Assembly: GCA_903885605.1 (NCBI GenBank)
Contig: CAISJD010000105.1
Coordinates: forward strand, 1-41,362
Source of the DNA: an uncultured Chthonomonas sp.
GTDB lineage: Bacteria; Armatimonadota; Chthonomonadetes; Chthonomonadales; CAJBBX01
Direction of reading: 5' to 3'
DNA length: 41,362 nucleotides
Both the position numbers and the translations under genes were made by a program. The notes beneath the pieces are model-generated. The model worked only from the letters and a program-made list of their open reading frames with translations, had not been told where the DNA came from and did not search any database. Positions 16,601-18,283 of this stretch are shown piece by piece. Position 1 is the first letter of the stretch; each line of letters starts with the position of its first letter.

Positions 16601-16714
16601 CACCGGCTCCCGCCGAGCCCATCCGCCGATTTTCCGGCCTCCTTTCCGCATTCCGCCCGGCTACGGCAGTGTACGGGTGTAAGAGCGGCGGCCAGACAGA
16701 AGGAGCGGGGACGA

Positions 16715-17557
16715 ATGGGCTCAAGGGATAGTGAGGACGGAAGCGGTCCGGACCTGGTGCGGCATCCCGACGCGGTGCGTCTGGCCGAGGCCTGCGAACT
16801 GCTGCACTCGGAACTGGTGTCGCTGCTGCTCGAGCGCGAGCATCTCGTCCATGTGGTCAGGCACAGCCTGGAGGCGCTCTACCTGGCGAGCTTCGGCCCG
16901 CTCAAGCATGAGTTGCTGACCCTGCAGGTGACGAACCGCCGCATGGTGCGCCGGCTCGAGCTCATGCAAGCCGCCCTGAACCGGGGCGAGCTACCCGATC
17001 TCTCGGAGGTCGACCGCGCCCTGGACGCGGAGTTCCTTGAGTGGGAGGTCAGGCTCCGCCTGGAGCGGGCGAGGATCGACACGGCGCTCGACATGCTGGA
17101 GCACACCATCAGTCCGGACGACGAGCGCGCCTTGCGCAGCCTCTTCCGCACGCTCGCGCTGAAGCTGCATCCTGATGTGAACCCCAAGCAGACTCCTAAG
17201 GCGGCCCAGCTCTGGCTGGCTATCCAGGACGCCTATGGCCGGGCCGACCTGGGCCGGATGAAGGCACTGGCGCTCCTGGCCGAAGGGCATGGGTTCCCGC
17301 CGCCTGCGCTGGACAGCCTGGAGGCGCTGCGCGCCCGCCGGTCGGAGCTGCAGGAGCAGGTCCGCGGCATCGTCACAAGGCTGGCCGAGATCAGGGAGAC
17401 ATGGCCCTTCACGCTGGCTGCGAAAATCGTGGATGCGGCCTGGGTTGAGGAGCAGCGCGCTGTGATCCGTGCGGCCATCGAGGCAGAGAAGGAGCGCCGT
17501 GTCGACTTGATGCTGGCGCTGGCAGGCATAGAGAGCGAGGCAGGATGTGGGCGGTGA
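16715..17557 (+). CDS. J-domain-like protein with helical flanks
   Basis: A 280-residue, mostly helical protein. Residues about 125-185 hold a J-domain core: helix II FRTLALKLHPDVN with the Hsp70-stimulating HPD motif at 152-154, then helix III (KAAQLWLAIQDAYGRA). The usual helix I is not recognisable. Residues 25-115 and 205-270 are charged heptad-like helices, probably coiled coils. The start is ATG 16715 with AAGGAG at 16700-16705. The HPD suggests it recruits an Hsp70, but no dnaK-like gene is in the window. It overlaps the HIRAN gene by 11 nt, so the two probably act together. I do not recognise a named family. Confidence 0.75.
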   Translation: MGSRDSEDGSGPDLVRHPDAVRLAEACELLHSELVSLLLEREHLVHVVRHSLEALYLASFGPLKHELLTLQVTNRRMVRRLELMQAALNRGELPDLSEVDRALDAEFLEWEVRLRLERARIDTALDMLEHTISPDDERALRSLFRTLALKLHPDVNPKQTPKAAQLWLAIQDAYGRADLGRMKALALLAEGHGFPPPALDSLEALRARRSELQEQVRGIVTRLAEIRETWPFTLAAKIVDAAWVEEQRAVIRAAIEAEKERRVDLMLALAGIESEAGCGR

Positions 17558-17945
17558 CCTGACGCTTGTCGGACCCGGGCACCTGGGCCTGGTGGTCGGG
17601 CCGGAGTGCGAGGGCGGGCTGGCGTTGCCCTACGGCCGCCGGGTGACGCTGCTGCGGTGCCGCGTGGCAGGTACCGGCTATGCCGATCTCGATGAAGAGG
17701 AGCCGAAGCTGCAGCCGGGGGAGTGCCTGGTTCTGCTGCGCGAGCCGTCGAACACGCATGATCCCCTGGCCATCCGGGTGCTCAGTTCCCGGCGCCGGAA
17801 GCTCGGCTACGTGCCGGCCGACCGCAACGAGGTGCTCGCCCGCCTGATGGACGCGGGTAAGCGCCTGACGGCCGCGCTTGTGAGCAAGGAATGGGACGGT
17901 GCGTGGCTCCACCTCGAGATGGAGATAGCCCTCGAAGAAGTCTGA
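17547..17945 (+). CDS. HIRAN domain protein
   Basis: A 132-residue protein, almost all one HIRAN domain (about residues 33-128). Visible features are RCRVAGTGY, the LVLLREPSNTHDPLAIRV block (the family's REPxNxxDxxAIxV) and KLGYVPADRN (the family's LGYVP). HIRAN domains of Rad5/HLTF bind DNA 3' ends; stand-alone bacterial copies are poorly understood and are often encoded with chaperone, phage or stress genes. The start is GTG 17547, inside the end of the J-domain-like gene, with GAGG at 17537-17540. No helicase or nuclease domain is fused. A role in DNA-damage sensing is possible but not shown here. Confidence 0.8.
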   Translation: MGGDLTLVGPGHLGLVVGPECEGGLALPYGRRVTLLRCRVAGTGYADLDEEEPKLQPGECLVLLREPSNTHDPLAIRVLSSRRRKLGYVPADRNEVLARLMDAGKRLTAALVSKEWDGAWLHLEMEIALEEV

Positions 17946-17975
17946 GGAAGCGTGAGTCCGCGTGCCGAGGGTGCT

Positions 17976-18254: not shown

Positions 18255-18283
18255 TTGACAAGCGCCGCGCATCGTGATACATT
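18255..18283 (+). promoter_or_regulatory. Sigma-70-type promoter of the pseudopilin gene
   Basis: A perfect -35 TTGACA (18255-18260), a 17-nt spacer and a -10 TACATT (18278-18283, 4 of 6). A transcript from here would have a leader of about 175 nt before the pseudopilin ATG. Confidence 0.6.

Follow-up and report, generated by a model that had tools for sequence, protein, structure and literature searches.

The two genes considered here lie on the forward strand of a contig of 41,362 nucleotides, which belongs to a genome of 5.6 Mb and was analyzed over its entire length (hereafter the window). The first gene (16715..17557, +) opens with ATG and encodes a protein of 280 amino acids, in which the translated reading frame and structure prediction place a J-domain-like core between two sets of long helices. 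A Shine-Dalgarno-like AAGGAG (16700..16705, +) stands 9 nt 5' of the ATG and is conserved in the congeners G001 and G002. The second gene (17547..17945, +) opens with GTG and encodes a stand-alone HIRAN protein of 132 amino acids, as indicated by its PF08797 and Foldseek matches. Its start codon falls inside the 3' end of the J-like gene, and the resulting overlap (17547..17557, +) has exactly the 11 nt claimed in an earlier note on this DNA, which makes translational coupling of the two genes likely. Within the genus, three pairwise comparisons gave dN/dS ratios of 0.21-0.31 for the J-like gene and of 0.10-0.20 for the HIRAN gene, values that fit purifying selection on both.

Upstream of the pair the window carries two ABC transporter genes, and a DUF1559/N-methyl pilin-like gene as well as URO-D and tricorn protease genes are found downstream. 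Pfam searches of nine neighboring proteins returned no helicase, nuclease, dnaK, restriction, repair or defence gene, in agreement with the earlier note, which had seen no adjacent helicase, nuclease or dnaK. Hsp70-family matches and a canonical DnaJ are present in the host genome. With regard to transcription, the sole sigma-70-like site between 16400 and 18400 lies downstream of the pair (18255-18283), and neither the heat-shock element CIRCE (with up to three mismatches) nor an exact GAACNNNNGTTC box occurs in the window.

The J-like protein of the window matches the Pfam DnaJ family (PF00226) with an E value of 2.3e-5 and 24.8 bits, under the cut-off of 27.8 bits, and the match spans positions 13-50 of the 63 profile positions, leaving the first 12 uncovered. 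Two of the seven scanned pair members pass this cut-off (L019 with 32.0 bits and L027 with 29.7 bits). Compared by hhalign with canonical DnaJ J domains (19 domains, obtained from 19 of the 25 loci tried), the profile of 14 family members reached a probability of 98.1% and an E value of 6.4e-14 over 41 columns, which extend from helix II to helix III; control templates, one reversed and five shuffled, gave 0.1-0.3%. An AlphaFold2 model built from 7 sequences (mean pLDDT 84.7) predicts helices at residues 18-89, 96-129, 134-151, 161-175, 179-189, 202-227, 232-238 and 241-270. The HPD motif (residues 152-154 of the translation; 17168..17176, +) comes right after the helix 134-151 and in the loop that leads to the helix 161-175, and the order of the predicted helices around it is that of J-domain helices II, III and IV. 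Helix II, the HPD loop, helix III and helix IV together make up the putative J core (residues 134-189; 17114..17281, +). Helix I is not recognizable in it, as that part falls outside both the Pfam and the hhalign matches. The loop position of the HPD between long helices and the sequence homology to J domains are those of a class C J-domain protein. On these sequence and model grounds, we regard the J core as real but partial, and the J-domain core that the earlier note had placed around the HPD is upheld for helices II and III by the hhalign match and for helices II to IV by the predicted helix order, but not for helix I, nor by a Pfam score above the cut-off.

Long predicted helices enclose this core on both sides. 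The N-terminal set (residues 18-129; 16766..17101, +) consists of the helices 18-89 and 96-129, which would form a hairpin, and both alignment and model put an NRG turn between them (residues 89-91; 16979..16987, +). The C-terminal set (residues 202-270; 17318..17524, +) consists of the helices 202-227, 232-238 and 241-270. The coiled-coil flanks suggested previously are plausible, because AlphaFold2 gives long helices on either side of the J core, which would pair with one another. Searches with the whole model by Foldseek (best E 0.24) and VIA-align (best Z 7.5) retrieved only long-helix look-alikes, with no J domain among the 50 matches listed in either case, and these whole-model searches decide nothing on the J fold. 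NCBIfam and PADLOC searches of the scanned J-like pair members returned only weak DnaJ-model, coiled-coil and unrelated matches. A canonical DnaJ of type A or B was considered and rejected, given that helix I is lacking and that the G/F and zinc regions are missing by inspection.

The variation within the family bears on the way in which the J core might act. Seven residues (L37, Y56, G61, N89, R90, H152 and A173) are invariant in all 14 aligned J-like members, with N89-R90 marking where the first long predicted helix ends. The HPD is exact in 13 of 15 distinct members, the two others being G001 (HAD) and L030 (HPS). Changes to the HPD generally abolish stimulation of Hsp70; HPE is tolerated, and a designed J analogue free of HPD was functional (PMC13254874). 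The two variants would suit an Hsp70-independent scaffold, in which a degenerate (type IV) J domain serves as an interface and the helical protein forms with HIRAN a clamp or sensor of DNA ends that signals to another effector. The unrecognizable helix I points in the same direction, as does the invariance of N89 and R90 while the P and D of the HPD vary, and pseudo-J proteins are recognized as a class of their own (PMC13254874). However, the exact HPD persists in 13 of 15 members even though, among the 13 other proteins in the alignment, 11 have no more than 18-40% identity to that of the window, and this persistence would scarcely be expected unless contact with Hsp70 were under selection; HAD and HPS could also represent recent decay or assembly errors. 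A scaffold of this kind is in our view unlikely, although it is to be taken seriously.

The HIRAN domain of the second protein (17652..17924, +, in the genome search) matches PF08797 with an E value of 1.5e-15 and 57.3 bits against a cut-off of 24.7. Its AlphaFold2 model, built from 8 sequences, has a mean pLDDT of 77.5, with values mostly below 50 over residues 1-28 and block values of about 70-93 from residue 31 to residue 130. Foldseek connected this model with the structure 3k2y (lp_0118 of Lactobacillus plantarum; E 4.9e-7) and with the DNA-bound HIRAN domain of HLTF (4s0n; E 1.3e-5). The HIRAN assignment, which the earlier note had already made, is secure as judged from the profile match and the predicted fold. 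Two residues, N69 and D72 (N69...D72; 17751..17762, +), are invariant in all 16 aligned HIRANs and correspond to N and D in the NPYD stretch of HLTF, residues that contact DNA in HLTF. While the fold and the invariant N..D pair are common to the HIRANs of HLTF/Rad5, to 3k2y and to the present protein, the HIRAN of HLTF is fused to a helicase, whereas the present one is a free protein of 132 residues that has a J-like partner. The PADLOC candidate PDC-M03B also resembles the HIRAN part, its best model matching at positions 134-209 of 250 only. Prokaryotic HIRAN domains have been termed uncharacterized (PMC11090510).

In order to follow the two genes beyond the window, 291 genomes of Armatimonadota and 288 genomes of Verrucomicrobiota were searched with a J profile. 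The full-length J-like family was found in 6 of the former (at least 198 bits, the next match having 64 bits), three of which belong to the window genus, and in 5 of the latter (at least 149 bits, the next match having 65 bits); one more J-like fragment, in the Verrucomicrobiota genome G320, is ended by a contig edge. A HIRAN gene lies directly 3' of the J-like gene wherever the full-length family occurs (11 of 11 genomes). In the reverse direction, 14 places in the two sets of genomes scored above 80 bits with the HIRAN profile, two of them at contig ends; of the 12 HIRANs that could be tested, 11 have the J-like gene, and the exception is that of G523. The 15 weaker HIRAN places (67 bits or less) had no J-like match in the flanks covered, which reach about 1.5 kb in either direction or up to the contig end. 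Six IMG/VR contigs were reached via HIRAN, and five of these have the J-like gene just upstream, two of them (L028 and L029) being identical in sequence at the pair. Spacing is close throughout, with an overlap of 8-32 nt at seven of 12 further loci and a gap of 3-24 nt at the other five.

The two proteins have also diverged together. Their pairwise distances are correlated with a Mantel r of 0.89 over 14 pairs and of 0.80 over 11 non-redundant pairs, and none of 20,000 permutations reached the observed value for either set, a correlation that would follow from shared vertical descent too. The pairing of the J-like and HIRAN genes is strongly supported, and the conservation of the gene order in two phyla and on IMG/VR contigs answers the question of neighborhood that the earlier note had raised. 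That two unrelated genes should simply be chance neighbors, for which the lone HIRAN of G523 might be cited, is next to inconceivable against the reciprocal association in two phyla (11 of 11 and 11 of 12), the correlated divergence and the close spacing, and chance adjacency was rejected on gene order.

The first J profile had no match in IMG/VR, and later J searches of this collection returned the known loci and three weak matches (L126-L128). At E 1e-3, neither 72,556 plasmids nor 50,697 phages contained a match to the J-like protein of the window; that of L032 had none in the plasmid or phage collection, and that of L028 none in the plasmid collection. The window HIRAN matched five plasmid records, two of which were found again with the L032 HIRAN, and HIRAN queries matched two phage records. 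For three of the five plasmid records, no J-like product is named near the HIRAN and the J profile found no match in those stretches.

A few loci depart from the usual arrangement. On the IMG/VR contig L031, the ORF upstream of HIRAN (L031:5217-5939), which lies near a recombinase-like ORF, resembles the end of the J-like protein of L030 in its C-terminal part and is unrelated in its N-terminal part, as far as can be seen by eye; it is perhaps an insertion or the product of a chimeric contig. In G537 (L082 / L115) an in-frame TGA interrupts the J-like gene, and the HIRAN frame that follows is open. The G523 HIRAN (L154:1327-1803), which has no J-like gene in the stretch covered, shows by eye a Tat-like N terminus, which one would not expect of a protein that binds DNA.

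The distribution of the pair, with about 2% of the genomes in each phylum searched, is sparse, and its surroundings change even within the genus. Compared by blastn with 14 kb around the pair of G001, the window has a single match (16611-17947, +; 82% identity), which consists of a short upstream region and both genes; since only this stretch matches, the pair of G001 lies in other surroundings. With 14 kb of G002, on the contrary, the window is syntenic over about 10 kb, to the left and to the right of the pair. G001 is also the congener in which the HPD reads HAD, in a pair that is otherwise intact, and this change may stem from decay, from error or from an Hsp70-independent function.

Outside the window genus, genes of restriction and related functions occur within about 5 kb of the pair at several loci. 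These comprise type IIG restriction-methylases in G035 and G101, Mrr in G196 and L028, type I restriction genes in L028 as well, LlaJI in L027, Vsr with a C5 methylase in L030 and a PLD/DpnI_C protein in G336. In G166, an HhH-GPD DNA glycosylase gene directly follows the pair on the same strand. By eye, an HsdM-like ORF comes next to the HIRAN fragment of G406, on its downstream side, and recombinase-like ORFs are seen near HIRAN in L031 and L032. No restriction gene was found near the pair among the ORFs read or scanned in G234, G091, G537 and L032, with Pfam applied to part of these ORFs.

As a control for density, matches to N6_Mtase (PF02384) and Mrr (PF04471) at E 1e-5 were counted in the 11 pair genomes. 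The eight genomes outside the window genus contain 40 such matches in 33.6 Mb, which corresponds to 0.013 expected per locus of 11.2 kb; these families were found within 5 kb at three of the eight loci outside the genus (P ~1.2e-4; P ~2.5e-4 for all 11 genomes), and the P values are optimistic because the families were picked after the neighbors had been seen. The restriction-modification neighborhood of the pair is hence supported, but post hoc. In G001, G002, G091, G166 and G234 the matches are on contigs other than that of the pair, and neither the window genome nor G537 has any, which speaks against the link to restriction. The window genome (G000) is rated 100% complete, and both of its congeners have several N6_Mtase/Mrr matches.

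These surroundings invite an explanation in which the two genes are a defence or counter-defence pair, that is, mobile-element cargo that works with or against the adjacent restriction-modification, for instance by sensing restricted or phage DNA ends and relaying the signal via a chaperone. The restriction neighbors of G035, G101, G196, L027, L028 and L030, the HsdM-like ORF of G406 and the recombinase-like ORFs of the two IMG/VR contigs would agree with such a role, as would the sparse distribution, the altered setting in G001 and the resemblance of the HIRAN part to PDC-M03B; DnaJ-dependent sensing of phages is also known (PMC12169576). Yet no restriction neighbor was found in the window genus, the window genome is devoid of N6_Mtase and Mrr matches, and the scanned J-like pair proteins have no PADLOC match other than that of the L027 fusion to LmuB, with 17 bits. 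Shared islands alone may moreover explain the closeness to defence genes, and we rate a dedicated defence pair as rather unlikely. An ordinary accessory pair for DNA repair or replication forks, devoid of a defence role and rendered sparse by loss, would be in line with the lack of N6_Mtase/Mrr matches in the window genome, with the glycosylase of G166 and the DEDD exonuclease fusion of a G101 paralogue (described below), and with the action of the HLTF HIRAN in fork remodeling (as cited in PMC8262856). It is improbable nonetheless, as a presence in about 2% of the genomes per phylum and on IMG/VR contigs is unlike that of housekeeping repair genes, and the closeness to restriction genes exceeds their density in other genomes.

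The reading that we tentatively prefer, and to which we would grant a little short of an even chance, is that of a dedicated J-like co-chaperone and a HIRAN adaptor that would together take DnaK to the ends of DNA in the context of restriction, defence or repair. The two genes would form a module that has moved between genomes. Its HIRAN protein would recognize DNA ends, whether cut, damaged or incoming, and would itself be held by the helical segments of its J-like partner, with the invariant NRG turn as a possible site of contact. At the DNA end, the HPD loop could then recruit and trigger the host DnaK, and DnaK might ultimately remodel or strip off proteins that are stuck on this end or act at it, usually in a setting of restriction, defence or repair. 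We infer the physical complex of the two proteins, the binding of DNA ends, the recruitment of DnaK and the outcome alike. A more specific version, in which the module is a mobile "DNA-end address label" for Hsp70, with HIRAN finding cut or foreign ends, the J-like partner bringing DnaK and the chaperone stripping or inactivating end proteins in restriction-linked defence, seems doubtful at present.

The earlier note had already proposed that a chaperone is delivered to damaged or foreign DNA. This proposal gains from the conservation of the pair and from the combination of restriction-modification or repair neighbors at several loci with a HIRAN fold of DNA-binding type, which fits "damaged or foreign DNA". 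Its chaperone half stands less firmly: Hsp70 recruitment by the J-like protein is plausible but not established, because helix I is unrecognizable, the HPD is altered in two of 15 members and the fold searches returned no J domain.

Several known systems share single traits with the preferred module of co-chaperone and adaptor. In Shewanella oneidensis, AtcJ is a class C J-domain protein dedicated to its operon, with a 7 nM affinity for its partner AtcC, so that there too gene order assigns a J protein to a single partner, for which a link to DnaK was proposed (PMC6715715). AtcJ differs in that it is a short protein whose J domain is functional, that it has a 21-residue tail and a role in cold adaptation, and that no known domain was found in AtcA, AtcB and AtcC (PMC6715715), whereas the present partner is a HIRAN protein, and in the present J core helix I is unrecognizable and long helices stand on either side. 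The HipI-HipN and HipL kinase modules likewise contain a bacterial HIRAN in a small gene unit with suspected sensing of DNA ends, including those of phages (PMC8262856). They combine a HipS-like domain with HIRAN, and the 132 residues of the present protein leave no room for the former; a HipA-like kinase was found neither among the nine window neighbors (Pfam) nor among 20 neighboring proteins scanned elsewhere. A toxin-antitoxin module of the HipI-HipN type was rejected for want of an adjacent HipA kinase and of a HipS-like domain.

Other comparisons concern defence and genomic islands. The HIRAN-HipA-diDNase clusters place HIRAN beside DNA-processing genes on genomic islands, but their partners differ, and the term DnaJ does not occur in the text of that paper (PMC11706625). 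For bNACHT25 a J protein is required in anti-phage sensing, as might be supposed for the present pair; bNACHT25 uses the DnaJ of the host, however, whereas the pair contains a dedicated J-like gene next to that of HIRAN (PMC12169576). Type IV restriction systems of the CoCoNuT class join coiled coils and Hsp70-like units, while the terms DnaJ and J-domain are absent from the text of the paper and HIRAN appears in the relevant passages only as a structural comparison (PMC11090510).

No description of a J-like/HIRAN pair emerged from our literature search, within whose reach most subscription journals did not fall, and the accessible parts of PMC2292703, PMC5512222, PMC7824862, PMC7580541 and PMC6469090 make no mention of such a pair. 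None of the accessible papers names the J-domain and HIRAN together. HIRAN and DnaJ both occur in PMC7464499, where HIRAN appears in the reference list only, and in a review on breast cancer (PMC10931553). As far as these searches reach, the pair joins two known domains in a new way, and the comparative evidence for it is strong. Through a J-core partner that is constant and diverges along with them, one group of stand-alone bacterial HIRANs gains a testable biochemical link to Hsp70, and the restriction neighborhood in other genomes offers a testable biological setting. If the preferred reading is true, a chaperone system would be connected to the handling of DNA ends and perhaps to anti-phage defence, and such a chaperone-based system of DNA-end processing is not described in the literature searched.

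J-like relatives also exist outside the pair. J-like proteins for which HIRAN was not matched in the stretches covered were seen in Armatimonadota (L083-L086 and L090) and in Verrucomicrobiota (L041-L044 and L046-L065); their ORFs encode about 265-450 amino acids, and the J core takes a central or C-terminal position in them. Among those scanned, L042 lacks a match to Pfam DnaJ at E 0.1, and L085 has only weak NCBIfam DnaJ matches. Fusions were observed at two loci. On the IMG/VR contig L027 (L027:4638-5933), about 170 residues to which the Pfam search gave no name precede the J-like protein in a fusion. In G101, on a contig (C57) that carries the locus L035 (L035:679-2310), a 544-aa protein joins an N-terminal DEDD exonuclease to a distant J-like half at its C terminus, and its exonuclease part matches PF00929 (RNase_T; E 3.2e-13) as well as the PADLOC DEDDh model and the candidate PDC-S48.
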